NCBI GenBank assembly: GCA_015655195.1
Contig: JAATFM010000239.1
Span: 1 to 39,197, forward strand
Origin: Terriglobales bacterium
GTDB taxonomy: Bacteria > Acidobacteriota > Terriglobia > Terriglobales > Acidobacteriaceae
Length of the DNA stretch: 39,197 nt
Direction: 5' to 3'
Under the pieces are notes generated by a model. It was not told the origin of the DNA, searched no databases, and was given only the letters and a program-made list of their open reading frames with translations. This document shows positions 1-35,265 of the stretch, in pieces. The position numbers and the translations under genes were made by a program. How positions within the stretch are numbered: position 1 is the first letter of the stretch; each line of letters begins with the position of its first letter.

Positions 1-191
1 GCGGCTGCTCCGCTGCGCAGGCTTTCCAGGTCCTCCAGATCGCCTCGATGCGCCTGGGCGCCTGCGGCCTCAAGCGATTTTGCGCCTGCATCCGACCGCG
101 TCAGTCCAAGTACGTGATGGCCTGCGCCGACGAGTTCTTTCACGACGGCGGAACCGATGAATCCGGTAGCGCCGGTAACGAAAACGCGCAT
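1..191 (-). CDS. NAD(P)-binding SDR/epimerase family protein, N-terminal part only
   Basis: The leftward reading frame starts at an ATG (complement of 189-191) and is open to the window edge, giving 63 residues. It opens with a Rossmann strand and the nucleotide-binding motif GATGFIG, followed by a helix, a second strand ending LGLTRS, and then [11 protein letters not shown]. This is the classic N-terminus of extended short-chain dehydrogenases such as NAD-dependent epimerase/dehydratases and NmrA-like reductases. The Arg/Ser after the second strand hints at NADPH use, which is inference. A good ribosome site (GGGAGG) lies about 7 bases upstream. The gene is divergent from the TetR gene at 314 and shares its palindrome-bearing promoter region, so it is the likely target of that repressor. 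The substrate cannot be told. Confidence 0.85.
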
Positions 192-251
192 ATGTGCCTC
201 CCTGATCTCATTCGAGCCAATATTGACGAAAGGATGCCGCCTCAACTAAAA

Positions 252-295
252 CGGAGTCACCCTCCGAATGAATAGATAACCGGAGGCAGCCTCCG
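252..295. promoter_or_regulatory. Twin palindromic operators between the SDR and TetR genes
   Basis: Two near-identical 15-bp palindromes, CGGAGTCACCCTCCG (252-266) and CGGAGGCAGCCTCCG (281-295), lie 29 bp apart centre to centre in the 122-bp divergent intergenic region. The second is perfect around its central base. TetR repressors commonly bind such inverted repeats beside their own gene and a divergent target. The second site ends 18 bases before the TetR ATG, so binding could block both promoters. Seen: the repeats. Inferred: their role. Confidence 0.65.
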
Positions 296-313: not shown

Positions 314-895
314 ATGACAAAGAAACGTTCCACGACAGCTCGCAAACCGCGCACAGACGCGCTGCGCAACCGCGAGCGTATTCTTGAAGTCGCGAAGGCA
401 GCCTTTACCCGACAAGGCGCCAATGCCAGTCTGGAAGAAATCGCGAAGATGGCGGGCGTTGGAATTGGTACCTTATATCGCCACTTTCCTACGCGGGATG
501 TGCTGATCGAAGGTGTTTACCGGAACGAAGTGGAGAAACTCGCGGCGGCCGCGCGCCGCTTCGCCGAGAAGATGACTCCGCTCGAAGCGCTTCGAGCCTG
601 GATGCTGCTGCTGGTCGATTACATTGCGGCAAAGCACATCATTGCGCCCGCGCTCAATACCATTGCCGGAGGCCCTTCCAGGCTTCATGAAGGTTCACGC
701 ACCATGATCCAAGGTGCGATCGATGGGCTCGTCAAGAGAGCCAAGAGAAGTGGCGATCTGCGAAGAGATCTGGATGCATTCGACCTGCTTCGAGCACTGA
801 TCGGCGTCTCGCATGTGGGCTCCAGCGCTGATTGGCCGCAGAGCGCCAGGAGACTGGTAGACATACTCATCGCAGGCTCACGCCCGCTCAAATAA
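314..895 (+). CDS. TetR/AcrR family transcriptional repressor
   Basis: A 193-residue protein of normal TetR length. Residues about 18-65 form the TetR DNA-binding domain: a first helix RERILEVAKAAF, then a helix-turn-helix with SLEEIAKMAGVGIGTLYRHFP, matching the family signature (IA..AGVs.gtlY.HF). The remainder is helical and resembles the C-terminal ligand-binding domain of TetR proteins related to YbjK or SACE_7040. The ligand is unknown. The gene is divergent from the SDR/epimerase gene at 191, with two matching palindromes between them, so autorepression and control of the SDR gene are likely. The ribosome site before the ATG is weak. Confidence 0.9.
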   Translation: MTKKRSTTARKPRTDALRNRERILEVAKAAFTRQGANASLEEIAKMAGVGIGTLYRHFPTRDVLIEGVYRNEVEKLAAAARRFAEKMTPLEALRAWMLLLVDYIAAKHIIAPALNTIAGGPSRLHEGSRTMIQGAIDGLVKRAKRSGDLRRDLDAFDLLRALIGVSHVGSSADWPQSARRLVDILIAGSRPLK

Positions 896-8400: not shown

Positions 8401-9137
8401 CATGGTCGAAGCTCATGGATGCAGGCGGATGGGTCGATGAAACCTATCGCGTTCCATCGCGGACACTCGACGGCAACGACCGAACCAACCGTATCACGAT
8501 TTCGGGAGTTTATCTGTTGCCCGTGGGACAAGGACAAAAATTCCTTGGGGCTCCTAGTGGTATTGGCGGGCATATTTTGAACGATGTAATTGGCGGCTGG
8601 GAACTCGGCGCTTTGTATATCTATGAGACCGGCAGTCCATGGGCTATTCCTAATAATCCCAATGAGCAATATCTTCATAATGCAAAGGTGAAACGGCACA
8701 TTGACAAGTCGACCGGATATATCGTGGGTGTTGCCGCCTGTGCTGCTAAGTGGAACGAGAATAGCAGTAACCAGTGGGAGATCGATTCTCTGTCTGTCAA
8801 CAATTTTTATCAATATCAAGCGGCCGGAGGAACCTGCGCTCAGACGGACTTCCTCGCGGTACCGTCGTATGGGGCGCTCCAGAACACGGTTTACTCGGGA
8901 ATTCGCATTCCAAACGATCAACAATTTGACAGCAACCTTGCCAAGAACTTTGACATTCGGGAAGGTCTCAAGCTCCAACTCAGGCTGGAAGCCTTCAACA
9001 CATTTAACCATCCTCTGTGGCAGTCGGGCTACACGGGAAGCACTAGCGATACGTACTTTGGCATGATTGAAAGAGGTGCAACAGGCCAGAGTAACCTGCC
9101 GCGCGAAGTGCAAATCGCCGCAAAAATTGTGTGGTAA
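5454..9137 (+). CDS. TonB-dependent receptor, Oar-like, with carboxypeptidase-regulatory N-terminal domain
   Basis: The GTG at 5454 is preferred over upstream in-frame starts: a GAGG lies just before it, and it begins a signal peptide (MKNAYRWLLLGILLPASM, cleaved after LAAQ). The 1227-residue product has a CarboxypepD_reg-like beta-sandwich (about 23-105; FTGRVTDSSGA). A plug domain (about 120-250) follows, with ITEIPLNGRDAN-like and LLDGVSNEAS motifs and FKIVTNAYDAQFGRAAGG. A long outer-membrane barrel ends in a terminal Trp (KIVW), as expected for BamA-inserted barrels. This class is expanded in Acidobacteria and works without a SusD lipoprotein; none is present here. It would import oligosaccharides released by the enzymes encoded downstream. 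The 285-base gap before it should hold its own promoter. Confidence 0.93.
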   Translation: MKNAYRWLLLGILLPASMLAAQEFTGRVTDSSGAIIRKAQITVHNQNTGVNVSAFTTDSGDYTVPYLKSGLYSVTAAAQGFESMAKTDITLQVDQTAVINFVLKVGQVSQTMTVKADDALLDFGKGDHGEVVENTRVTEIPLNGRDANMLAILNAGAVWTGNIEYQRPFDDTMQNLSINGGGAGNNEILLDGVSNEASPSNGGSNSKIAYVPPVDAVQEFKIVTNAYDAQFGRAAGGALDEVLKSGTNRIHGDAYEFARRTFLNANTWQNNYLLAKGGSPSQYQRPPQNWDQWGAELDGPVVLPKVYNGRDKSFFLLQFENFKEKVPSSTVTSVPDPAWASGDYSNLVAANGLPIWIYDPNSITQNSGGQWIRKTYAEEAGCTPAPVSSGSPTDPTCLPFNKIPSGSINKVAQNVMAYYPKPNTTPPSGGNPFANNYAAPTPQIERYRNVLAKWDENLTSVDRFTLRYGYWERVETGSTNGMPGVIAEGNFPHGERAHTFATQETHTFRPNLLFDFRAVASVRADYTFPSPAGFDESSLGWPSSMVSQFGYAGSVFPYLQFSEFAYVGDNAASSDTTNSLSLLPSVTWIRGKHSIHAGFDARFLQYIVTANGGGPWFWIDRTWSQRNWQTWDTGSGNSFASLQTGTASSGNFSINSQAFWSQHYWAPFVQDDWKITPKLTLNLGIRWDFNGPQTERQNRGAYAFDENAVNPVDPLVNHADLPNGEQIKGGYTFLGVNGNPRTMYSLVKTNIQPRVGFAYALSSKAVLRGGFGEMFSNPTPGGNPVGYSAQTNYDSTDDNYIHPTNNFSQPFTTVVKPTDSSAGMLTNLGQGGSSCNTCFFVNPHFKIPSFWSYSAGIQLQLSSHDTLELSYVGSRSYNNNSSDNVNHETAAYQEQCNPELGGRPDTCNNDNRPNPFQNVAAFEGSGAYYSSSTIQGGNLTRPFPEFGDLTEWQLNDGRSWYNSLQVTAMHKWNKTLTLHGTYTWSKLMDAGGWVDETYRVPSRTLDGNDRTNRITISGVYLLPVGQGQKFLGAPSGIGGHILNDVIGGWELGALYIYETGSPWAIPNNPNEQYLHNAKVKRHIDKSTGYIVGVAACAAKWNENSSNQWEIDSLSVNNFYQYQAAGGTCAQTDFLAVPSYGALQNTVYSGIRIPNDQQFDSNLAKNFDIREGLKLQLRLEAFNTFNHPLWQSGYTGSTSDTYFGMIERGATGQSNLPREVQIAAKIVW

Positions 9138-9147
9138 ATCCCAAGGT

Positions 9148-9192
9148 TGCCGAGTGGCCGCGGTGCATGAGTCATGCGCGGCCCACTCGGCA
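9148..9192 (+). other. Intercistronic stem-loop after the TonB receptor
   Basis: TGCCGAGTGGCCGCG (9148-9162) pairs with CGCGGCCCACTCGGCA (9177-9192), leaving one bulged base and a 14-base loop. It starts 11 bases after the receptor stop codon. No T-tract follows, so it may act as an mRNA-stabilising or attenuating hairpin that separates receptor from enzyme expression, rather than as a strict terminator. Confidence 0.6.
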
Positions 9193-9378
9193 GACATCTC
9201 GCCACGCAACGCAATCCGCATGTCTGGAATCCGTTATGCGCGCCAGGCCGACGTTTCGAATGTGTCGCGGCGCACTTTCCGGGTGAGTTTGGGAACAAGC
9301 TTAGCGGGGAAACAGTTCTGGGATGGATCCGGCACGCTATATGCTCTGCTAACTCGGGGGTTCATTGGAGGATTGGTC

Positions 9379-11631
9379 ATGTTTTCACTTCCGGCATTAT
9401 CGATTCAGTCCGCGCGCACCGCAGTCAGGCTTTGCGGATTGGTGTGTGTTGTTGCTCTTGGGCTCGCAGTCTCGCTCCATGCGCAGACCGTCACTGTGAC
9501 GAACGTGTTTAATAACGGCTACAACTACAACGCATTTCCCGGTGATTGCTCGTCCGGCTATAACATTCCTAGCTCGAATATCGCTACGGGCAACCACCTG
9601 GAGCGCGAGCATGTGATCTACAACGCGACGACGGACCAGTGGGTCATGTGGGCGCACTACGATAACAGCAATTACACATTGGCCGAGGCAATGGTCTTGA
9701 CCAGCACGAACGAGTGCGGGCCCTACACTGCCGTACTGGAGTTTCAACCCGACGGTGAGCAAATCCGGGACGACTACGTTTTCGAGGATACGGACGGTTC
9801 GGCGTACTTCATTGCCGCCTCCAACAAGGACGGAGGCGCGAATGACACGATGGCCATCTTCAAACTCACGAGCGACTATACGAATGTCGATCCGTCAGTG
9901 CCGGTAACGTGGGTCTTTGAAGGCGACTATCGCGAGGCGCCGGTTGTAGTCAAGAATAATGGAACATATTTTCTGCTCACATCGCAGGCGGCTGGCTGGT
10001 ATCCCAGCCAGGGTGGATACGCTACCAGCACATCCATGCTGTCAGGATGGTCGGCATTACAAAATCTCGGAAATTCGTCGACATTCGGCGGTCAGGAAAG
10101 CGACGTACTTACGATCAAGGGCACCCAGGCAACATCCTATGTGATGACGTTGGATCACTTAAGTGGACACAATGATAGCGGATCGATGTGGCTGCCTCTG
10201 ACGCTCGATGGCAGCACTCAGACAGCTACATTGAATTGGTATAGCTCCTGGAGCATTGACAAGACTACTGGATTGCTTACCCTTCCCGATACGCCGAATC
10301 TCGCATCGGCAGGAACGGCCTCGGCAGACTCTAGTTTATCCACCAATCCGCCGCAACTTGCCGCCGATGGGAACTATGCAAGCGAATGGGTCTCTGCTGC
10401 CACCGGATGCGGCGGCAATAGTTGCTTTCCAGCGTTGTGGACGGTGGATCTTGGATCGCCAAAGCCGGTTCAGGAGATCGACATTTCCTGGTATATGGTC
10501 AAGGGGTCCGAAGGCTACTACACATATAACATCGATTACAGCAATGACGGTTCTACTTGGACGACGATCGATCATATCGGCAACAAGCTTTACGGATTCA
10601 CTTTCGATCCGGTCAGCTTTACCGCAAGATATGTGAGGATCGATCTAGAAAGTGCCGTTCTCCAGAATAACCCCAACAATAATTGGTATACGCCGCAGCT
10701 TTGGGAGGTGGCGGTCCTCGGTACCCCTGCGAGCACGAGTCCAGGGGGCGGATATTTGCCGGTTACGGTGACTGCGACACCGTCTTCAGCAACCATTACA
10801 ACTAAGCAATCGCTAACAGAGGCGGTTGTCGTCAGCGGCGGAAGCGGCAATCCGACGCCCACTGGCACGGTGACGTTGACGGGCGGAGGCTATACCTCCC
10901 CGGCTACAGCCCTGATTGGCGGCAGTGTGACATTTAACGTTGCCGCCGGCGCACTTGATGTTGCATTGGACATTCTGACTGCGACCTATGTTCCCGACAC
11001 CACGAGTTCACCGATATACGGAACCAGCTTCGTATCGGCAACCGCTTCCATTCGAGTCAATACACCAGTAAAGACGATCACGCTAATCAACAGCGGAAAC
11101 AGCAATGGCAACAACCTACTGCCCCCTGGTACCAGCGGCTCGATACCATACACAATCACAGTCACCCCTTCCGGAGGCTTCTCAGGACAGGTGAACCTTA
11201 CCTGCAACGTTTCCTATCAAGGCACACTTGGCGTCGGTCCCTCGCCGGGCAGACCGCTGACCTGCGGCCTCGGCTCGGGCACAACTGCTTCGGTTACTAT
11301 CGCGGCATATACGCCGGCGACTGCGACACTTACCGTATCTTTGCCAACGACCACCAGCCAGGCGATACGGCCAAGTAAGGGACTCGTGATCGGTGGAGGT
11401 GGACTGGCATTGGCCGGCCTCCTTCTCTTCGGAATTCCAGTTCGCCGTCGCGGCTTCCGTGCGCTTCTGGTCATAGTCATCGTTGCTACTGCTCTTGGGG
11501 TGATTACGGGCTGCGGCAACTCGGCGACTATGAGAACTGCGCCGGGACTGTATTACGTGACGGTCTCGGGGGCCGACGCCGCAACAGGCTCCATTACCGG
11601 CAGTACAACCCTGAACATTGTTGTTGAGTAA
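9379..11631 (+). CDS. Secreted GH43-like glycosidase with F5/8-type C domain, Ig-like domain and C-terminal hairpin anchor
   Basis: The start at 9379 is set by GGAGG eight bases upstream and a signal peptide (cleaved after SLHAQ, about residue 36); a longer in-frame extension overlaps the receptor gene and is unlikely. Residues about 50-300 form a five-bladed GH43-type propeller (EREHVIYNATTDQWVMW, FEDTDGSAYFIAAS, REAPVVVKNNGTYFLL), similar in layout to the GH43 at 16602. An F5/8 type C (discoidin) carbohydrate-binding domain follows (about 305-455), then Ig-like segments. The C-terminus has hydrophobic segment, VRRR, a second hydrophobic segment ending ITGC (Cys codon 11512-11514), and a 40-residue tail. 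Likely role: debranching or exo-cleavage of galactan at the cell surface; the activity is inferred. Confidence 0.82.
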   Translation: MFSLPALSIQSARTAVRLCGLVCVVALGLAVSLHAQTVTVTNVFNNGYNYNAFPGDCSSGYNIPSSNIATGNHLEREHVIYNATTDQWVMWAHYDNSNYTLAEAMVLTSTNECGPYTAVLEFQPDGEQIRDDYVFEDTDGSAYFIAASNKDGGANDTMAIFKLTSDYTNVDPSVPVTWVFEGDYREAPVVVKNNGTYFLLTSQAAGWYPSQGGYATSTSMLSGWSALQNLGNSSTFGGQESDVLTIKGTQATSYVMTLDHLSGHNDSGSMWLPLTLDGSTQTATLNWYSSWSIDKTTGLLTLPDTPNLASAGTASADSSLSTNPPQLAADGNYASEWVSAATGCGGNSCFPALWTVDLGSPKPVQEIDISWYMVKGSEGYYTYNIDYSNDGSTWTTIDHIGNKLYGFTFDPVSFTARYVRIDLESAVLQNNPNNNWYTPQLWEVAVLGTPASTSPGGGYLPVTVTATPSSATITTKQSLTEAVVVSGGSGNPTPTGTVTLTGGGYTSPATALIGGSVTFNVAAGALDVALDILTATYVPDTTSSPIYGTSFVSATASIRVNTPVKTITLINSGNSNGNNLLPPGTSGSIPYTITVTPSGGFSGQVNLTCNVSYQGTLGVGPSPGRPLTCGLGSGTTASVTIAAYTPATATLTVSLPTTTSQAIRPSKGLVIGGGGLALAGLLLFGIPVRRRGFRALLVIVIVATALGVITGCGNSATMRTAPGLYYVTVSGADAATGSITGSTTLNIVVE

Positions 11632-21350: not shown

Positions 21351-21894
21351 GAAAGAAGCCTGTTGCGACGTAGCCTTCAATCGCATCTACGAGAAGGGCC
21401 TCATACAGGAGGTCGGATTCGGGCGCATGTACGCGCAAGATTTACGCAGGGACATCGATAGCTAACGACGAGTCGGCCAGTATTCATGAGTATGCCGCTC
21501 GATGAGTGGGTTGGCGATAGTGCGCTGTGCGCCGGGATAAACCGGCATGTTGTAGGGGGGTGCAAGTCCCCTGCAGGAAAGGAAGTAGTGAATCCATCCT
21601 GACCTCTAGTTTTGCATGGGGCATCGCGAGGTGTTCGGTGAAGCGTAGGCCGGAGGCATCGGTGGGCGGGGTGATTGAGCTTCGAAAAATCGCAGATCAG
21701 GATGCCGACTCCCTAGTGAGCAGGAGGAAGGCAAAACGGCAGTTGCGGTATCCGCGAGTGACTGTCCGGTCCTGCGTAGTCGTGAGAGCCCGCGCACGCT
21801 GAGAAACAACATGCACGAGAACCGGGAGATCTCCAGTGCGCCTTCGCCACTTGGCGAAGGCCGGTCCGCGAAGGCCTCAAGCCGAACGGCGGAC

Positions 21895-23290
21895 ATGCAC
21901 GTGTTGGAGAAGTCGGACTGTGCCGTAGTACCTGTGAACCAGCCGAACAAAGCAGCGATAGCTGCGGCGGAGGCGGGGGAGGGAAGGGCGCAGATGAAGG
22001 AGAACATCGGTCAGCCACGCATGCTCCCGACTCAGAGCGGGAACCGCATGCCCCAGGGACTGGACGGTGTGCGTAAGGCAGCAAGGAAACAGGAACGGTT
22101 CACTTCCTTGCTCCACCACGTGACAACATCGCTGTTGCGCGATAGCTTCTACGCTCTCAAGCGTCAAGCTTCGCCGGGAGCCGATGGTGTCCGGTGGCAG
22201 GAGTATGAATCTGGACTGGAGGATCGGCTCGTTAATCTTCACAGCCGGGTTCACCGCGCAGCGTTCCGGGCGCAGCGTTCAGGCGAGTCTATATACCGAA
22301 GGCCGATGGGCGGCGACGTCCGTTGGGTATCGCGGCACTGGAAGACAAAATCGTCCAGCAGGCCGTGGTGATGATCCTCAATCAGATTTATGAGGTCGAC
22401 TTCAATGGCTTCTCCTACGGGTTCCGTCCGGGCCGCAGTCCTCATCAAGCGCTGGATGCGCTTGCGGTGGGACTGGAGCGGAAGAAAGTGAACTGGGTGC
22501 TCGATGCGGACATCCGCGGCTTCTTCGATAACATGAGCCACGAGTGGACGACTAAGTTCATCGAGCATAGGGTGGCCGATCGCCGAATACTTCGCCTGAT
22601 CCGGAAATGGCTCAGGGCGGGAGTATCGGAGGATGGCCAGTGGTTGGAAACGAAGCAAGGTACACATTAGCGAGCAGTGGTCTCACCGCTGCTCGCTAAT
22701 GTGTATCTCCACTACGTGTTCGACCTATAGGCGGATGCCTGGCGCAGGGAAGTGGCAACCGGCGATGTCATCATCGTTCGTTATGCCGACGATCTTGTGA
22801 TGGGCTTCCAGCATCGAGCCGAAGCAGTGCGGTTCCTTGACGAGTTTAAGGAGCAGTTGGCGAAGTTCGGCTTGGAACTCCACCCGGAAAGGACTCGGCT
22901 GATCGAGTTCGGGCGCTATGCAGCCCACAAACGGAAACAGTGGGGCAAAGGGAAACCAGAGATCTTCACGTTCTTGGGCTTCACCCACTACTGCGGGCGT
23001 TGCCACAAGACCGATACCTTCACCGTCTGGCGGATTACGCCGAAACAGCGAATGGTAGCGAAGCTGAAGACCATCAAGGTTGAGCTTCTCCGCCGGAAGC
23101 ATGATCGTATCAGCCAAGTTGGTGCATGGCTTCGGAAGGTGGTCACTGGCTACTACCAATACCATGCTGTTCCTGGGAACATCGGCTCGTTGCGCACCTT
23201 CAGACAGCGCGTCAATCGGCTCTGGCGGAATGTTCTCGTCCAGCGTCCCTACCGGGGCCACAGATTTCATTCAAGAGTTCGAGGCAGTGG
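21895..23290 (+). pseudogene. ltrA: Group II intron reverse transcriptase/maturase, frameshifted with two stops
   Basis: The reading starts near ATG 21895 (MHVLEKSDCAVVPVNQPNK) and shows SPGADGVRWQEYE. It breaks near 22281, where one lost base shifts the frame, and resumes with RRVYIPKADGRRRPLGIAALEDKI, GFSYGFRPGRSPHQAL and VLDADIRGFFD. A TAG at 22668-22670 replaces Gln of the GTPQGA motif; a second TAG at 22728-22730 replaces Trp in FDLWADAW. The catalytic box YADD is intact (22782-22793), followed by GLELHPERTRLIEFGR and FLGFTH. The maturase region fades after RLWRNVL (about 23230), so the C-terminal X/DNA-binding part is missing. It cannot give a working enzyme. Confidence 0.9.
22661..22705. 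repeat. Perfect inverted repeat inside the reverse transcriptase pseudogene
   Basis: TACACATTAGCGAGCAG (22661-22677) is the exact reverse complement of 22689-22705, and two further base pairs lie inside across one mismatch, leaving a 5-base loop. The right arm codes the normal LLANVY segment; the left arm overlies the expected GTPQGA codons and is where the first stop lies. The arm looks copied from its partner. Confidence 0.85.
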
Positions 23291-23502
23291 CTCCTCTCAG
23301 CCAGTTGTTACAAAACATACAAACAATTTCTTTGAAGGAAAGACTTTTTTGAAGAGAAGCCGCCGGGAAATTGATATTCTGTGAGGGCCTTTTCATTTCC
23401 CCTAGTCACAATTCCCCGTCTCCCGATTCTGCAGGTCCGCGTTTCGAAGGAGCTTATTGCAGGGGCTACTGAATCAAGTTAACCCAAGGTGGAGTCTGCC
23501 CG

Positions 23503-27736: not shown

Positions 27737-27821
27737 TAGATTAAATTAGTTGACTCCCGGGCAGACTGACAAATTAAGTAGCCATATGGAAATCAGGTTT
27801 CTTACCGGGGGTTCACATAGA

Positions 27822-30800
27822 ATGCACATCACATCGTGTTTGCGCTGGGTGTTTGCGGCGACGCTCGTCGGTTTGCTCGGAGGACAGTCGACGCAGGCTG
27901 CCGGCCTCCAGGCAAAACAGAACTCCGCTCGTCCGATCTCTCCTTCCCCAAACACCCCATTCGAGGCGGTCATCGGTTCCCACCTTGCGGATTGGGTGAA
28001 GCAGGGCAGGCAGGCGGCGGAGAGTGTGCCTCAGGGCAGGCAGGCAGCTTCGGTTGCCGCGAGCAGTGTACGCGTGAATGCCCCCGCATTTGTCGCTCCT
28101 CCTTTTCTTGCCTTCGGAGCGGCACTGGTGAATCCTCTGGCGGCAGACTTCAACAACGATGGCAAGGTCGATTTTGCCAATGTTGAAGGCGATGGCACGA
28201 TCATGGTCTTGCTGAACCCCGGCTCTTTCTCGAATCTTGCCGCCCTGCAGCCGCTGGGTCCGAATACCAGCGCAACCGCCGGAGGCAAGGGCCGCAACAT
28301 CGTGCAGGCTCTGGTTGCCGACATGGATGGGGACGGAAATGCGGATCTGATTGCTCTCGATACGGCGAATTCGTCGGTGGTCGTGTGGCATGGCAACGGG
28401 GACGGTACCTTTGGAAATGCCACGGATTATTCCATAGCGGCGGCGTCCGGAGCGGCACCGGAAGCCATTGTCATTGCGGATTTCAACGGAGACGGCAAGC
28501 CGGATGTAGCGACGGTTGACCTGACTCCTGCCACTCCGAACGCCACCACCAGCACCATTACCGAGCTGACGCTCCTGAATCAGGGCGGAGGCGTACTCGC
28601 TCCCGGCAAGGAAGTAGATACGACGGTAAACGAAGCCTTCGGAATGTGGACGGGAGCTGCGGATGTGATTAGCCAAGGCGGTAAGCCGACCGGGCTTGCG
28701 TTTGTTCTGACAGATTCGGGATATACGAGCCCTTCCGGACCGGGCTCCTACGTTTTCGTTCTCTCAAGCAACGGAGACGGCTCCTTCACCGCTGCTGTAA
28801 AGCCGGGCGCGCCGTTGATCTCAAGCGAATCGCCGATAACGATCATCGCTACGAACCTGATCTCGGGCTCCGCCGGCAGCCAGATGGCGCAGGCCAAGCG
28901 AAGCCATCGTGCACTGCTATCGTCGAACAGTTCGACCGGGGCAGCGATCTCGACCACGGATCTGGTCATTTCTGCCGGGAATGGCGCCTTGTACGACGTA
29001 CCGTATGCCGGCGGATCAGGCAATCCTGCCTCCGCAATCGCTCTGGTTGGAACCCCGGACAATTTGAGTGCAACATCCGGGTTGTTCCCATCGTCTCCGG
29101 GGGCTTTTCCTCTTATTCCGAATACCGGCCTGGTCGTAGCGGATTTTGATGGAGATGGTTTTCTCGATCTTCTTACCACCACAGCGGCAACGGCGTATGT
29201 CTTTCCAAACAGCGGGAACCGTACCTTTAGCCGGGCTCCGGTGCAGGTTTCGGGAGCGAGTGCCGGCAATGTCGTGGCCGCCGATTTTGATAACAGCGGC
29301 TATCCCTCCCTTATCTGGGCCGATGACGTCTTGTCGCAGATCGGATATTTTCAGAACCTGGGATCGACGAATCCCTCGCAAAGCGGCTTGTTTTATGCGG
29401 CCCCGGCAGTATCCGGCCCAAGTACGAATGGCGGCAGTGATTACTATGCGTTTGGCGCCAACATTGGGGTCCAGGCGGTGGCCGATGTGAACGGCGACGG
29501 CCTGGAAGATGTGATTGCCACAGATTCCTCCTACGTATATCGAGATGGCCTCCCGGTGCATCTTAACGCGGACATTGTTCTGGGGATCAACAATGGCGCG
29601 GGCATCGGCAACAATGAGAGCAACGGCTTTACCTTCAGCACCGTAATTTCCGGAATCAGCCTCGGAGCCCTTGGCTTCAATCCGCTTCTTGAGCCAGTTG
29701 CCATCAAGACGACGGCGGGAACGACTGTGTTGCTTACGATCGCCAGCCCCCCGGCTTTGTACACAATAGCGATCGATAACAAAGGGAATGCGGGGGCTCC
29801 GCAAGCGCTCAACTTCGGGAGCGTAACGCCGGCTTGTACCGTGTATTATGCCGACGCTGGCGACGTAAATGGCGATGGAAATGCGGACATTGTGGTTGCG
29901 TATTCGGGAGATTTCCTCTGCACCGGCGGAACGCCTGGGCAAGGGGCGGTCAACTCTGGATTCTTCACCTTCCTGGGCAATGGAGATGGCACCTTTCAGG
30001 CAGGGCAGTATACGCCTGTAGGGACAGCGCTGTTTAAGGTGAAGCTGATCGACCTTACCGGCGCTCCGGGAAAACTAGATGTTGTCGCGATTGACTCCTA
30101 CACGCCGGCTTCGCAGCAGCCCGGCCCCATCGGTCCCGGCGGCCCATCGAGTGCCCCGCCAAGCCACCACACGTATGTCATTCCTGGAAATGGCGATGGA
30201 ACCTTTCAGGCATCAGCCGCGGCAGACGCTGCTCCGAACTATATTGTGTCGGACATTATTTCCGGCGATTTCAACCAGGACGGAATCCAGGATCTTATCC
30301 TCACCACGGAGGGGCAATACAACAGTGCGACTCAGGGGATGATTGCGAACACTTCCGGTGTTCTCCTGCTGCCTGGAAATGGCGACAGGACATTCGGGGC
30401 GGGACAGTTGATCGATCAAGGGTTCTATCCGGCTACTGGCAAATTGGGCGATTTTAATGGGGACGGTACGCCGGACCTTGCTGTCACCCAATTCACCTCC
30501 AGCAATGCTCTTATTCCCTTTACGCCGATACTGGAGGTTTTCCCAAACCTTGGAGGAGGAGTTTTCGGACCGTCCTATGGCGAGTTTCAGGCTCCGTTCA
30601 ACTGGGTGCTTGAAAGCGGGCTGAAGACTGTTAACATCCCTCTCTTTACGGGAGCATTCGGCGCGGTCGGCAGCACGGATCTGCTCTTGTCCAATGGATA
30701 TAATTCCACGCTGTTTCTGAATCAGGGCCAGCCTGCGCTACAAGTGACCGCTGCTCCCACTACGGTCAGCCAGGGAGCGCCGGTGACACTCACTGCCGCC

Positions 30801-31550
30801 TTGCTGTTGGGCGGCAACACGGTCAGTTCAGCCACAGGGGCCGTAACGTTTTCGATCAATGGAACGGCGCTCGGTTCTAGCCCGCTTGAAAATGGCACCG
30901 CCACCTTCATTACCAGCAATCTTCCCGCAGGCAGTGATGTTGTAAATGCCGCCTATTCCGGAGACGCGAACAACAACCCGGCGACGGGAAGCGCGACCGT
31001 GACCGTTACCGCGCTCGCGCCTGCCTTCACGATGACGGCATCTCCGGGCAGTCTTTCTCTTGTGCCAGGTGCAACGGGCACGGCCACGTTAGCGTTGACC
31101 TCGAATGCAGCCTTCAGCGGAGCGATCAGCTTTACCTGCACGGGTGCGCCGTCAGAGGCAAGCTGCACTGTCGTTCCGAGTACGTTGACGATAAGTGCGA
31201 ATCAGACCGGCAATGTGGCCGTTGTGGTTGCTACGACGGCAACGAATAACCAATATCAGGGAGCGGTGCATCTGCTGTGGAAGACGGCAGCGGCGGGCGG
31301 TGTCAGCCTTGCTGGCGTACTGTTGTTGCTTCTGCCGCGCCGTCGCCGATATGCAGGCATCTGGAGTGCTCTTGCTCTGATTCTGCTTGCCGGCGGCTGC
31401 ACCGGACTACTGACTGGCTGCGGCAGCGATGGCGGGAACAAATATCCCGGCACACCTATGGGCACGAGCACATTAACGATAACCGCTACTGCGGGAACGC
31501 TATCTGTGAGCCAGACCATCACCGTCAACATTGGGCAGGCACAGCAATAA
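27822..31550 (+). CDS. Secreted FG-GAP/VCBS repeat protein with Ig-like domain and C-terminal hairpin anchor
   Basis: I prefer the ATG at 27822, which begins a compact signal peptide (MHITSCLRWVFAATLVGLLGG, cleaved after TQA) with GGGGG about ten bases upstream; 27786 is an alternative. The roughly 1242-residue product carries at least nine FG-GAP-type repeats with calcium-binding D.N.DG.D motifs (ADFNNDGKVDF, ADMDGDGNADLI, GDVNGDGNADIV, GDFNGDGTPDLA), forming one or more beta-propellers. An Ig-like domain follows (SGDANNNPATGSATVTV), then a CTGAPSEASC segment. The C-terminus has a hydrophobic segment, PRRRR, a second hydrophobic segment ending LLTGC (Cys codon 31419-31421) and a 43-residue tail. 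Likely an adhesive or binding surface protein; it has no clear catalytic domain. It is followed by a sedolisin gene on the same strand. Confidence 0.85.
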   Translation: MHITSCLRWVFAATLVGLLGGQSTQAAGLQAKQNSARPISPSPNTPFEAVIGSHLADWVKQGRQAAESVPQGRQAASVAASSVRVNAPAFVAPPFLAFGAALVNPLAADFNNDGKVDFANVEGDGTIMVLLNPGSFSNLAALQPLGPNTSATAGGKGRNIVQALVADMDGDGNADLIALDTANSSVVVWHGNGDGTFGNATDYSIAAASGAAPEAIVIADFNGDGKPDVATVDLTPATPNATTSTITELTLLNQGGGVLAPGKEVDTTVNEAFGMWTGAADVISQGGKPTGLAFVLTDSGYTSPSGPGSYVFVLSSNGDGSFTAAVKPGAPLISSESPITIIATNLISGSAGSQMAQAKRSHRALLSSNSSTGAAISTTDLVISAGNGALYDVPYAGGSGNPASAIALVGTPDNLSATSGLFPSSPGAFPLIPNTGLVVADFDGDGFLDLLTTTAATAYVFPNSGNRTFSRAPVQVSGASAGNVVAADFDNSGYPSLIWADDVLSQIGYFQNLGSTNPSQSGLFYAAPAVSGPSTNGGSDYYAFGANIGVQAVADVNGDGLEDVIATDSSYVYRDGLPVHLNADIVLGINNGAGIGNNESNGFTFSTVISGISLGALGFNPLLEPVAIKTTAGTTVLLTIASPPALYTIAIDNKGNAGAPQALNFGSVTPACTVYYADAGDVNGDGNADIVVAYSGDFLCTGGTPGQGAVNSGFFTFLGNGDGTFQAGQYTPVGTALFKVKLIDLTGAPGKLDVVAIDSYTPASQQPGPIGPGGPSSAPPSHHTYVIPGNGDGTFQASAAADAAPNYIVSDIISGDFNQDGIQDLILTTEGQYNSATQGMIANTSGVLLLPGNGDRTFGAGQLIDQGFYPATGKLGDFNGDGTPDLAVTQFTSSNALIPFTPILEVFPNLGGGVFGPSYGEFQAPFNWVLESGLKTVNIPLFTGAFGAVGSTDLLLSNGYNSTLFLNQGQPALQVTAAPTTVSQGAPVTLTAALLLGGNTVSSATGAVTFSINGTALGSSPLENGTATFITSNLPAGSDVVNAAYSGDANNNPATGSATVTVTALAPAFTMTASPGSLSLVPGATGTATLALTSNAAFSGAISFTCTGAPSEASCTVVPSTLTISANQTGNVAVVVATTATNNQYQGAVHLLWKTAAAGGVSLAGVLLLLLPRRRRYAGIWSALALILLAGGCTGLLTGCGSDGGNKYPGTPMGTSTLTITATAGTLSVSQTITVNIGQAQQ

Positions 31551-31564
31551 CTCTTCAGGAGCGA

Positions 31565-31590
31565 AGACCTGGACAGGAGTGTCCAGGTCT
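31565..31590 (+). terminator. Stem-loop after the FG-GAP gene (terminator-like)
   Basis: A perfect 11-bp stem (AGACCTGGACA / TGTCCAGGTCT) with the 4-base loop GGAG begins 15 bases after the FG-GAP stop codon. The following sequence (CCACCTTTC) is poor in T, so termination may be partial and allow readthrough into the protease gene. Confidence 0.6.
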
Positions 31591-31641
31591 CCACCTTTCA
31601 ACATGCCCCGTCAACATTTTCATCGTGGAGAATTCGCGACT

Positions 31642-34600
31642 ATGAAGCGTTCCCTGGTCTTCCGGCTTTTCGCTTGTTTTGGCATCACACTTTTTCTTCT
31701 GATCCTTGGTTCTTCGGTGGGTGTGGGCTACGCACAGATTGTTCCATCCATCTCGTCTGCTGCTCCGGTTCAGCCTGTGCCTCTCATCACGCAGAGCATC
31801 GAGGATGGCGGCCTCGTGACTTTGCACGGCACCGTGCATCCGCTGGCAACGTCCGCAGCCGATCAAGGCGCGGCGCCTGATTCGCTTCCAATCGGCCGCA
31901 CGATGCTGCTGCTGAATCGCGGCGCGAAGCAGCAGCAGGCGCTTGAAAAGCTGCTGGATGACCAGCAGAATTCCAAGTCTCCGAATTATCACCACTGGCT
32001 CACGCCGGCACAGTTCGGGCAGCAGTTTGGCGCGGCGCCCGAGGATGTGCGGAAGATCACGCAGTGGCTAGAGAACTATGGATTTCAGGTTGAGCCGCCG
32101 ATGGCCGGACAGGATCTGATCGTGTTCTCTGGCACGCACGCGCAGTTGAAAGCGGCGTTCCACACCGAGTTGCATCGCTATCTGCAGAATGGGCAGACCT
32201 ATTACGCAAACTCAGTCGATCCGCAGATTCCTGCCGCACTCGCGCCCGCGATCCGTGGCTTTGTATCGCTGAATAATTTTCCGCGCCATACTCTGCACTC
32301 GGCTCCGAGGCTGGTGAAACGCGAGGATGCCAAATGGAAGTCCGCGGACCCGGGGGCTGACAGGACACACCCGCAGCTCACAGCAGTGTCGGGGAACGAG
32401 ACCCTGCACGCGATTGCTCCATACGATCTGGCGACTCTCTACAATGTGCAGCCCCTATGGGATTCCGGGATTGACGGCACAGGTCAGACGATTGCCATTG
32501 TCAGCACGTCGGATATTAATCCCGCGGATATTGATTCCTTCCGTTCGAGTTTTGGTTTACCGGCCAAGAAGCTGAACATAATTTATGTTGGACCCAATCC
32601 TGGAATGGCTTCGATGGGGGCGGAAGGCGAGGCCGATCTCGATGTAGAGTGGGCCGGCGCCGTGGCCAAGGAGGCCACGATTGACTTGGTGGTGGCGGGT
32701 AATACGCCGACTTCCGGCGGTGTTGAAGGCGCGGCGGCATATATTGTCAACAACAATCTTGCCTCCATCATGAACGTCAGTTACGGCGCATGTGAGTATG
32801 AGCTGGGCGCTGCCGGCAATCAGTTCTATGCGGCAATATGGCAGCAGGCCGCGGCTCAAGGCATCACTGTCTTCGTTGCCGCAGGCGACTCAGGATCGGC
32901 ATCCTGCGATGTAAACGTATCGATTGCACAGTATGGATTGTCGGTAAGCGGAATTGCTTCCACGCCATATAACGTTGCGGTTGGCGGAACGGATCTTTAC
33001 GGCAGCTATACCGCTCCGAGCCAGTATTGGAATGATTCGAATGAACCCACAACATTCCAGTCATTGAAGTCATATGTTCCTGAGTTGCCATGGAACAACT
33101 CCTGTGCCAGTCCTCAGATACTATCCGCCTTGCAGGCACAGGGCCTGACGGATGCCACACCGGAGGCTCTCTGTAATGACTTTCTTGTTCGACAACAATA
33201 TTTGACCGTAGCTGGCGGTGCCGGCGGCGCGAGTGGCTGTATTACAGGCGGAAGCGACGGTGTCACATCCTGCTCAGAGGGGTATCCCAAGCCGGCCTGG
33301 CAGAGCGGAGTCGCCGGAATTCCTGCCGATGGCGTACGCGATCTGCCGGATGTCTCCCTGATGGCAGGCAGTGGGCTCTGGAGCTCCTTCTATGTCTACT
33401 GCCAGTCGGATACTACGCCGTCAAAGACCTGCGATGTGAGCACGGAGATCGAGGGCGCGGGCGGCACATCCTTTGCCAGTCCAATCTTTGCCGGAATTCT
33501 GGCGCTGGTACAGCAACAGACCGCATCGGCGCAAGGAAATGCGAATTATATTTTCTACAAGCTGGCTGCGACACAGTATGGGGCGAGCGGAAATGAATCC
33601 AGTTGCAGTTCCGCGAACGTGGCGGCTGGAAATGCGTGCATCTTTTACGACATCACACAGGGAACCAATGCCGTGCCATGTCTGAGTAGAAGCCCCAATT
33701 GCACAATCAGCAACCCGATAGATTTCACGGGTATTCTGTCCGGCTACAATGCCGGCACTGGATACGATCTGACAACAGGACTGGGCTCGGTCAACGTTGC
33801 GAATCTTGTCAATAACTGGAGCAGCGCGGCCTCGGCGTTTATCTCGACGGATACAAGCCTCACAGCTTCAGGAAGTACAAGTGTGCAATATGGCTCGTCC
33901 ATCACGTTGAACGTGACTGTTTCCCCGGCAGGCTCCAGCAGCATTACTGGAACACCGGGAGGAATCGTTGGCATTACCACGAACAGCACGACCGGCAGCA
34001 ACGCGGTTGGGAGCCTTCCCCTTACCGGTGGTCAGGCCAGCGGATCCGTCACCACGCTTCCGACCGGCAGTTATCAACTGTTTGCTCACTATGCCGGAGA
34101 CACTACCTTTGCGTCCAGCCAATCCGCGGGGTTGGCAGTTGCAATTACTCCCGGAGCCGCGATCACATCCATCTCCGCCGGCCATGCAACAGTGTTATCC
34201 GGGCAAAAGTCCGGCGTGTCGATCCTGGTTGCAGGAATACCGGATGGTGCCACTCCAACCGGTACGGTAACCATTACAAATACAAGCACGGGAGCTGTAT
34301 TGGGTTCAGCGGCACTCGCCCCAGACTCGGAAAGCGGAAGCTCACCGTCCGCAGTTGTTTACATCACGGTCCCCTCCAGTCAGCTTACGATGGGACCGAA
34401 TACCATCACCGCAAGTTACTCCGGGGACGGAAACTATCTGCCGGTTGCTGCATTCTCGACGACGATCAATCTGGTGGCGGCGTTTACGGCCTCAACTAAT
34501 CCGGCTGCGCTGACGCTTGCCCCAAATGCTTCTGGAACCGTTACGGTGACGGCAACGCCTGCTGCATCTGAGACATTGAATCCCGTCGGTTTCAGCTTCT

Positions 34601-35265
34601 CGTGTCCGGCAAATATGCCCGCGGGATTGACGTGCTCCTTCAGCACTCCAACCGCAGCAGCCGGTGGCGCAGTTACATCAACACTCACTCTGCAGTCGGC
34701 ATCTCCGTTGTTGACCCACATGACGCAGGTAGCATCTGTGCCGGAACGCTGGCTGAGCGCAGGAGCAAGTCTGGCAGTGGCAGGGCTGCTCCTGCTGGGC
34801 GTTCCTGTTCGGCGCCGCCATATTTTCTCTGCGTTGTCCATGGTAGCCCTTGTATCGCTCTTCTGGCTGAGTGGATGCGGCGGCGGAGGGTCCTCTCCGA
34901 TTTCCACGGTGACCACACTTTCGGTTACGCCGAAAAATCCGGCCTTTCAGAGCCAAGTCACTCTCACAGCACAGGTGACGCCAAGTTCCGGCAGCGGGTA
35001 TCCGACGGGAACGGTGACATTCTCAAGCGGAAGCACGACTATCGGAACGGCAACGCTGTCGTCCGGGACTGCGAGTTTCAGCACGAGCTCTCTGCCTATC
35101 GGCAATAGCTCTTCGACGGCTTCTTACAGCGGCGATTCCAAATACTTATCATCAACATCCTCATCGAGCAGCCTGGATATCGTTTACACCACGAGCCTGG
35201 CCATCACGGCAAAGGATAGTGCTGGCAATAGCAGTGTTGCGAATCTCGCCTTGACGATCCAATAG
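31642..35265 (+). CDS. S53 family serine-carboxyl peptidase (sedolisin/pro-kumamolisin) with Ig-like repeats
   Basis: The ATG at 31642 follows GGAG and starts a signal peptide (cleaved after GYAQ). The 1207-residue product has a pro-kumamolisin activation domain (about 45-210; NYHHWLTPAQFGQQFGA) and the S53 catalytic domain. Catalytic Glu330 and Asp334 lie in GEADLDVEW, catalytic Ser610 in GGTSFASP, and the calcium site near FYDITQGTN and GYDLTTGLGSVN. Ig-like repeats follow (SGDANY-like YAGDTTFASSQS, YSGDGNYLP). Unusually, a hydrophobic segment, VRRR and a second hydrophobic segment ending WLSGC (Cys codon 34876-34878) precede one more Ig-like repeat and the C-terminus. S53 peptidases act at acidic pH outside the cell, fitting an acidophilic soil bacterium. 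Probably anchored at the surface. Confidence 0.93.
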   Translation: MKRSLVFRLFACFGITLFLLILGSSVGVGYAQIVPSISSAAPVQPVPLITQSIEDGGLVTLHGTVHPLATSAADQGAAPDSLPIGRTMLLLNRGAKQQQALEKLLDDQQNSKSPNYHHWLTPAQFGQQFGAAPEDVRKITQWLENYGFQVEPPMAGQDLIVFSGTHAQLKAAFHTELHRYLQNGQTYYANSVDPQIPAALAPAIRGFVSLNNFPRHTLHSAPRLVKREDAKWKSADPGADRTHPQLTAVSGNETLHAIAPYDLATLYNVQPLWDSGIDGTGQTIAIVSTSDINPADIDSFRSSFGLPAKKLNIIYVGPNPGMASMGAEGEADLDVEWAGAVAKEATIDLVVAGNTPTSGGVEGAAAYIVNNNLASIMNVSYGACEYELGAAGNQFYAAIWQQAAAQGITVFVAAGDSGSASCDVNVSIAQYGLSVSGIASTPYNVAVGGTDLYGSYTAPSQYWNDSNEPTTFQSLKSYVPELPWNNSCASPQILSALQAQGLTDATPEALCNDFLVRQQYLTVAGGAGGASGCITGGSDGVTSCSEGYPKPAWQSGVAGIPADGVRDLPDVSLMAGSGLWSSFYVYCQSDTTPSKTCDVSTEIEGAGGTSFASPIFAGILALVQQQTASAQGNANYIFYKLAATQYGASGNESSCSSANVAAGNACIFYDITQGTNAVPCLSRSPNCTISNPIDFTGILSGYNAGTGYDLTTGLGSVNVANLVNNWSSAASAFISTDTSLTASGSTSVQYGSSITLNVTVSPAGSSSITGTPGGIVGITTNSTTGSNAVGSLPLTGGQASGSVTTLPTGSYQLFAHYAGDTTFASSQSAGLAVAITPGAAITSISAGHATVLSGQKSGVSILVAGIPDGATPTGTVTITNTSTGAVLGSAALAPDSESGSSPSAVVYITVPSSQLTMGPNTITASYSGDGNYLPVAAFSTTINLVAAFTASTNPAALTLAPNASGTVTVTATPAASETLNPVGFSFSCPANMPAGLTCSFSTPTAAAGGAVTSTLTLQSASPLLTHMTQVASVPERWLSAGASLAVAGLLLLGVPVRRRHIFSALSMVALVSLFWLSGCGGGGSSPISTVTTLSVTPKNPAFQSQVTLTAQVTPSSGSGYPTGTVTFSSGSTTIGTATLSSGTASFSTSSLPIGNSSSTASYSGDSKYLSSTSSSSSLDIVYTTSLAITAKDSAGNSSVANLALTIQ

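Follow-up and report, generated by a model that had tools for sequence, protein, structure and literature searches.

A putative C-terminal membrane anchor predicted to interrupt an Ig-like domain in secreted proteins of an acidobacterial genome

The closest described counterpart of the element examined here is NF058595 of NCBIfam release 20 (June 2026), 'invert_tail', a 'lipo-invert putative C-terminal anchoring domain'. We analyze this kind of ending in three open reading frames (ORFs) of contig JAATFM010000239.1 from a Terriglobales bacterium (Acidobacteriaceae; assembly GCA_015655195.1). Each of them closes with two hydrophobic runs joined by an Arg-rich loop, then the motif (T/S)GC and a tail. 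The window is this entire 39.2 kb contig (C106); the genome comprises 4.76 Mb in 327 contigs and is 96% complete. We find that this hairpin of two presumptive transmembrane (TM) helices is strongly predicted to lie in a loop of the last immunoglobulin (Ig)-like domain, and we consider it reasonably probable that it serves as a C-terminal membrane anchor whose Cys is processed as in a lipoprotein.

NF058595, known here by its model and name rather than by a description text, has the same C-terminal layout as the window proteins. Against its curated cut-off of 37 bits, the FG-GAP protein (ORF 27750-31550) scores 48.8 bits by hmmscan and 54.7 in a genome search, and is the only member among the window proteins. 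The other two have the same anatomy and fall below the cut-off: ORF 9067-11631, aligned in our alignment A2, scores 27.1 bits by hmmscan and 31.7 in the genome search (match 11320-11625), and ORF 31531-35265, a long-tailed variant, is unlisted by hmmscan at E≤1 and reaches 22.4 bits in the genome search. All 33 rows of a wider alignment, A4, match NF058595 at E≤1e-3. The existence of this model puts out of date the statement in the original prediction that no such signal had been described. No publication on the signal was found in the open-access literature, most subscription papers and bioRxiv preprints lying outside that search. NF058595 differs from the structure proposed below in that its 113 positions start at about the last strand before the hairpin, so that the split of the Ig-like domain is invisible from it. 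A putative anchor is already named; what is new here is the split-Ig anatomy, which makes the mechanism testable.

Two other known signals invite comparison. TM2, the second helix, resembles a type II (lipoprotein) signal peptide in its basic start, its hydrophobic run and its ending, mostly (T/S/A)(G/A/S)C, which supports the earlier proposal of a shared C-terminal anchoring signal laid out in this way. Like lipoproteins, these proteins have a lipobox-like Cys after a hydrophobic run; unlike them, they carry it internally, near the C-terminus, with another TM helix upstream. In the MYXO-CTERM/myxosortase signal (TIGR03901), an invariant Cys comes first and one TM helix follows, with clustered Arg closing the sequence; no lipobox is defined, and acylation is proposed to be the work of Lgt (PMC11980579). 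The hairpins are likewise putative C-terminal anchors that combine an invariant Cys with TM helices and clustered Arg, but the order is reversed: the Cys follows the second TM helix, the lipobox is ordinary, and two strands come after the Cys.

The shared ending and its predicted split Ig-like domain

The common ending proposed for ORFs 9067-11631, 27750-31550 and 31531-35265 is borne out. Their second hydrophobic runs close with ITGC, LTGC and LSGC, respectively, and the codons for the Cys begin at positions 11512, 31419 and 34876. For ORF 9067-11631 the start codon is uncertain, and a signal-peptide-like run lies within the listed N-terminus. The features are as follows (window coordinates, strand; pLDDT, predicted local distance difference test).

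9067-11631, +: GH43-like / F5_8 type C secreted protein with C-terminal hairpin in a predicted split Ig domain (Pfam; NF058595, 27.1 bits)
11068-11352, +: first part of its terminal Ig-like domain, before the insertion, borders approximate (alignment A2)
11383-11511, +: its hairpin; TM1 11383-11442, RRR 11443-11451, TM2 11452-11511 (end VITG)
11512-11628, +: its lipobox Cys (11512-11514) and tail, 39 residues including the Cys, aligning with the last two Ig strands (A2)
27750-31550, +: FG-GAP / Big_3_5 secreted protein with hairpin in a predicted split Ig domain (Pfam; NF058595, 48.8 bits)
31020-31235, +: first strands of its terminal Ig-like domain, model residues 20-91 (AlphaFold, VIA-align)
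31278-31418, +: its hairpin; TM1 31278-31337, RRRR 31338-31349, TM2 31350-31418 (end LLTG)
31419-31547, +: its lipobox Cys (31419-31421), linker and predicted last two Ig strands (31461-31532, block pLDDT 90-98)
31531-35265, +: sedolisin (pro-kumamolisin activation domain, Big_3_5) with hairpin in a predicted split Ig domain and long tail (Pfam; NF058595, 22.4 bits)
34474-34698, +: first strands of its terminal Ig-like domain, model residues 14-88 (structure model)
34750-34875, +: its hairpin; TM1 34750-34809, RRRH 34810-34821, TM2 34822-34875 (end WLSG)
34876-34878, +: its lipobox Cys
34894-35187, +: extra Big_3_5 domain inserted in its tail (Pfam; structure match 154..251, Z 11.3)
35191-35262, +: its two final strands, which are predicted to close the split Ig-like domain (VIA-align, 2 of 50 rows)

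The start at 11370 originally given for the first terminus is out of frame and meets stops in that reading; one in-frame reading is 11068-11628. The three proteins had also been called unrelated. They do share a domain: the beta-rich segment and the tail give the same terminal Ig-like fold in each case.

The beta-rich segment and the tail are almost certainly two parts of one Ig-like domain, with the hairpin inserted before its last two strands. Homology and structure prediction both point to an Ig-like beta sandwich built from the two parts. For the homology search, 16 source-genome C-termini were aligned with the hairpin excised (alignment A1), leaving neither hairpin nor Cys in the profile. 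Among its 91 matches in the source genome are three uninterrupted copies that run nearly end to end over the 118 positions and leave no space for a hairpin: C121:7882-8181 (positions 5-117), C121:8185-8490 (4-116) and C245:8060-8350 (6-117). The two on C121 are the C-terminal domains of a hairpin-free protein, by eye a sedolisin. In hairpin members the first piece ends at about position 79-101, and the tail piece, where listed, starts at about 68-85. Two weak rows that span most of the profile, C45:5431-5763 (E 3e-4) and C152:11624-11986 (E 4e-4), were left out of the counts; the latter overlaps a known hairpin.

An AlphaFold model of window 30963-31547, built with 40 native sequences (predicted template modelling score 0.63), shows the same arrangement for the FG-GAP protein. 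Its strands 22-91 have block pLDDT of 96-98 and the strands after the hairpin, 167-177 and 180-190, pLDDT of 90-98; the helices 111-123 and 131-145 have block pLDDT of 63-73. In VIA-align, model residues 20..191 superpose on the Ig domain (404..502) of the Micromonospora sialidase (1eut/2ber), with 98 residues aligned at a root-mean-square deviation (rmsd) of 1.8, Z 13.7 and 20% identity. The 99 residues of this Ig domain thus align with two separate pieces of the model, between which the hairpin is looped out. The sialidase domain shares the fold of the split domain but is uninterrupted and lacks membrane helices. By sequence, look-ups of the excised Ig domain in known families gave weak matches only (best E 3e-4 in Pfam, with 16 rows, and 0.002 among PDB sequences).

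The sedolisin is predicted to have the same layout, with weaker support than for the FG-GAP protein. Its model (window 34435-35262, 8 sequences, mean pLDDT 77.9) places the Big_3_5 domain at 154..251 (Z 11.3). Just 2 of 50 VIA-align rows join the outer parts: in one, 14..276 aligns 104 residues with the Ig domain of Vpr (592..700) at rmsd 3.1 and Z 9.7; in the other, 12..276 matches a Rib domain with Z 9.6. One loop of this protein thus probably takes up both the hairpin and an entire additional domain.

Conservation of the cysteine and spread of the hairpin

A1 contains no Cys, and the copies it finds are not chosen for one. From its searches of the source genome and of 19 further genomes of the same family, 30 loci each were read, and the 60 loci comprise 45 interrupted and 15 uninterrupted copies. 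In all 45 interrupted copies (28 source genome, 17 relatives), a Cys closes the second helix. A motif in the first Ig part gave a further sample: 324 stretches fitted the pattern and 32 named GTDB loci passed tblastn with a hairpin-bearing query, a step that may favour interrupted copies. Hairpin and Cys are present in all 32, and in 14 of them the confirming match stops before the Cys. Two more sets were found, unlike the 45 copies, with models that contain the Cys. Among 49 hairpin domains from 48 family loci, the only columns at least 97% conserved are the Cys (49/49) and one Gly of the Ig part (48); among 19 domains from the class sample described below (18 from families f70, f71 and f73, one from f1), the Cys (19/19) is one of 15 such columns. 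Counts from 55 lipobox rows are not used as proof, the rows having been picked by a Cys regular expression.

The residues around the Cys were counted in 116 located hairpins, made up of 67 of the 68 source-genome places described below (one at a contig end was left out), the 17 relatives and the 32 named loci. This set counts one gene twice (C7, C93:10943) and includes two row pairs from the near-identical genomes G094 and G163; the 28 source loci above overlap the 68 places. Position -1 is G, A or S in 116/116, as against 34% within TM2, and position -2 is T, S, A or G in 92/116, as against 38%. The two positions after the Cys are mostly G, and in the Cys-anchored alignment no position from -40 to -2 is kept in more than 44%. 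The loop region carries a net charge of +2 to +9, positive in every hairpin. The earlier expectation that both Cys and RRR would be conserved thus stands for the Cys and for the positive charge of the loop, but not for strict RRR, which varies.

Tails have 33-139 residues after the Cys in 113 of the 116 (33-70 in 100); the others are a copy cut by a contig end and the tails of L174 and L179, with 605 and 232 residues. In a long-tail subtype, mostly sedolisins, an extra Ig-like (Big_3_5-type) domain lies between the lipobox and the last two strands; its members are L044, L051, L052, L061, L064 and L078 of the source genome and window 34435-35262. We also considered whether an internal translation start could make the tail a separate lipoprotein. 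This was rejected: a Met occurs at -34 to -15 in 52/116, with no single place holding more than 14.

The source genome is rich in such endings, beyond what chance would give. NF058595 matches 72 places at E≤1e-3, 48 of them over the cut-off; at the same threshold, 5 of 14 control genomes have matches and none exceeds the cut-off. Reading the 72 places in frame by eye gave 68 C-terminal hairpins, some cut by contig ends, and four ordinary N-terminal lipoprotein signals (C266, C163, C94, C298:22300); that the model also matches the latter indicates a resemblance between TM2 and such a signal. Two pairs, C7 with C93:10943 and C317 with C201, overlap with identical sequence where their contigs break off; each pair is probably a single gene, and the 68 places represent about 66 genes. 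When 3250 six-frame ORFs from 425 kb of source-genome DNA were scanned for the pattern, 64 hits came up, three judged spurious by eye; its loci were chosen for holding model matches, and the rate is not genome-wide. Scanning of 17 further source-genome carriers gave six sedolisins, three FG-GAP proteins, two NHL proteins, one protein with a lamin-tail domain and five with Ig-like domains only.

The 19 other family genomes have 5 to 18 matches each (E≤1e-3), which makes the source genome the richest among the 20; none of the 20 lacks a match over the cut-off. The FG-GAP hairpin gene followed by the sedolisin hairpin gene recurs, with order and strand alike, at six other loci of the same genome (L052, L061, L067, L070, L075, L078), and in reversed order at L069. 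This recurring tandem pair may partly account for the 72 matches, as against 5-18 in relatives.

In a phylum sample of 199 genomes, NF058595 at E≤1e-5 matches 20/20 family members and 12/179 others; 23 of the 199 exceed the cut-off, three of them, by count, outside the family, and one of 14 controls matches, below the cut-off. Restriction to the family, hinted at by this sample, was rejected, hairpin-spanning A4 matches being found in further families of the class. With A4 at E≤1e-10, 96 of 151 genomes in a class sample match: 29 from f1 (the family of the window genome), 28 from f70 and 28 from f71, the remaining 11 belonging to other families. Among the matches listed, the best ones from f1, f70, f71 and a single f73 genome cross the whole hairpin; 35 matchless genomes are unlisted, and presence in every f70 or f71 member cannot be claimed. 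Outside the class, 29 genomes match A4, with at most 17 candidates scored per genome; each of their matches at E≤1e-6 covers the Ig part (ending at or before position 82) or, in a single case, just the tail. In 30 of their loci, one domain out of 87 covers the hairpin columns and is, by eye, an N-terminal lipoprotein. Named carriers include Granulicella aggregans and bins of Candidatus Acidiferrales, Terriglobia and Acidobacteria. Three further labels, for L161 (Rhodanobacteraceae), L163 (Deltaproteobacteria) and L173 (Ignavibacteria), rest on metagenome bins or assemblies that may be misbinned.

Two side observations may be added. Weak Pfam TcdB_toxin_midN matches overlap the FG-GAP repeats of window 27750-31550 and of L038, the window match lying below the family cut-off; they are no ground for naming these proteins toxins. 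Elsewhere in the window, ORFs 21811-22371 and 22752-23384 resemble, by eye, the front and back of a broken group II intron reverse transcriptase.

Proposed membrane anchoring and lipoprotein processing

How might such an ending reach its final state? In the mechanism we favour, the body of the protein would be exported through its N-terminal signal peptide, TM1 would halt transfer, the Arg-rich loop would stay cytoplasmic and TM2 would return to the outer face; under the positive-inside rule, a positive loop stays inside. TM2 would then act as a built-in type II signal peptide, the conserved Cys most likely being diacylglycerylated by ordinary Lgt and ordinary LspA probably cutting before it. 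The two strands after the Cys would fold back onto the rest of the Ig domain, and strand complementation would hold the cut chain together, leaving the protein anchored by lipid as well as hairpin. What the sequences show is the pattern, its conservation and its spread; topology, lipidation, cleavage and final membrane are all inferred. Among these steps, lipidation of the Cys is likely, whereas cleavage by LspA is plausible, with the balance only slightly in its favour. More tentative, and a little short of an even chance, is the full picture of a self-splitting lipoprotein, in which Lgt and LspA would act inside an Ig domain to give a body and a lipidated two-strand tail joined by beta-strand complementation. 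In E. coli, the Lol rule is that Asp after the lipidated Cys leads to retention in the inner membrane. Asp or Glu directly follows the Cys in 0/116 hairpins, so that the Lol rule would not retain these proteins there; uncut TM1 would.

The general lipoprotein enzymes suffice for this model. LspA is present in 40/40 genomes, as a single copy in each of the 20 family genomes and also in the 20 comparison genomes. Lgt is likewise present in 40/40, and its copy number fails to separate the two groups; the source-genome Lgt is a fragment located where contig C220 (12,504 bases) ends, as would fit a break in the assembly. The co-occurrence with a dedicated peptidase or acyltransferase that had been suggested was not seen: of the four families searched (LspA, Lgt, exosortase and rhombosortase), none looks dedicated, and a partner may still lie among families that this search did not cover, such as CPBP proteases and other rhomboids.

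Several points weigh against our preferred reading. Position -3 is barely more aliphatic than the rest of TM2 (103/116 versus 82%), and the rule used to find the Cys in the 116 hairpins carried a small bonus for G, A or S at -1. The TM helices of the AlphaFold model are of modest confidence (block pLDDT 63-73), and rows spanning both parts of the sedolisin are few (2/50). After a cut by LspA, TM1 and TM2 would still hold the body in the inner membrane, so the lipid would add little unless TM1 were cut as well; no conserved TM1 motif was seen across the aligned hairpins, nor any partner protease among the four enzyme families examined.

It is also possible, although unlikely, that Lgt lipidates the Cys in place and no cut follows, giving a single chain held by the hairpin and by a lipid on the outer leaflet. 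Lgt is present, and the chain runs on into a needed part of the Ig domain, for which no cut is required. Yet G, A or S at -1 in every hairpin is what would be expected were LspA also to recognize the site. Less probable again is a plain two-helix anchor, in which the Cys is a relic or has another use (metal, disulfide, S-acylation). Two hydrophobic runs and a net positive loop, found in 116/116, would be enough to anchor a protein, but the Cys is retained in every located hairpin, with G, A or S just before it and mostly G in the two positions that follow, in contrast to the weak conservation from -40 to -2. Moreover, 115/116 tails have no second Cys within the next 60 residues.

The original prediction had LspA freeing the tail as an independent lipoprotein and leaving the body as a hairpin. 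The lipobox layout would fit such a release, which we nevertheless regard as quite improbable: the Ig domain begun before the hairpin has its last two strands in the tail and is incomplete without them, and 100/116 tails have just 33-70 residues. In our preferred mechanism the two strands complete the Ig domain, and a cut tail would stay bound. Finally, that TM1 and RRR serve, in the manner of PEP-CTERM or GlyGly-CTERM, as a tag for cleavage by a sortase-like protease is very improbable, since, although some TM1 helices begin with GG and exosortase is present in 16/20 family genomes, TM1 has no conserved motif, exosortase has 0 matches in the match-richest source genome (96% complete) and in three other family genomes, and rhombosortase exceeds the TIGR03902 cut-off in 0/40 genomes, its weaker matches (38/40, and 14/14 controls) being at the level expected of general rhomboids.

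The signal marks large secreted proteins of a major lineage of soil bacteria, whose genomes each encode from several to dozens of them, and the domain-splitting layout hints at how the signal named by NCBI could work. If the split-Ig reading is true, the two strands that follow the lipobox belong structurally to the last domain, which would explain why they are kept. Lipoprotein processing could then take place far from the N-terminus and yield a protein of two chains, a possibility of greater interest, if true, than the anatomy alone. It would also mean that a lipid anchor can be placed at the C-terminal end of any secreted protein by the general lipoprotein enzymes alone.

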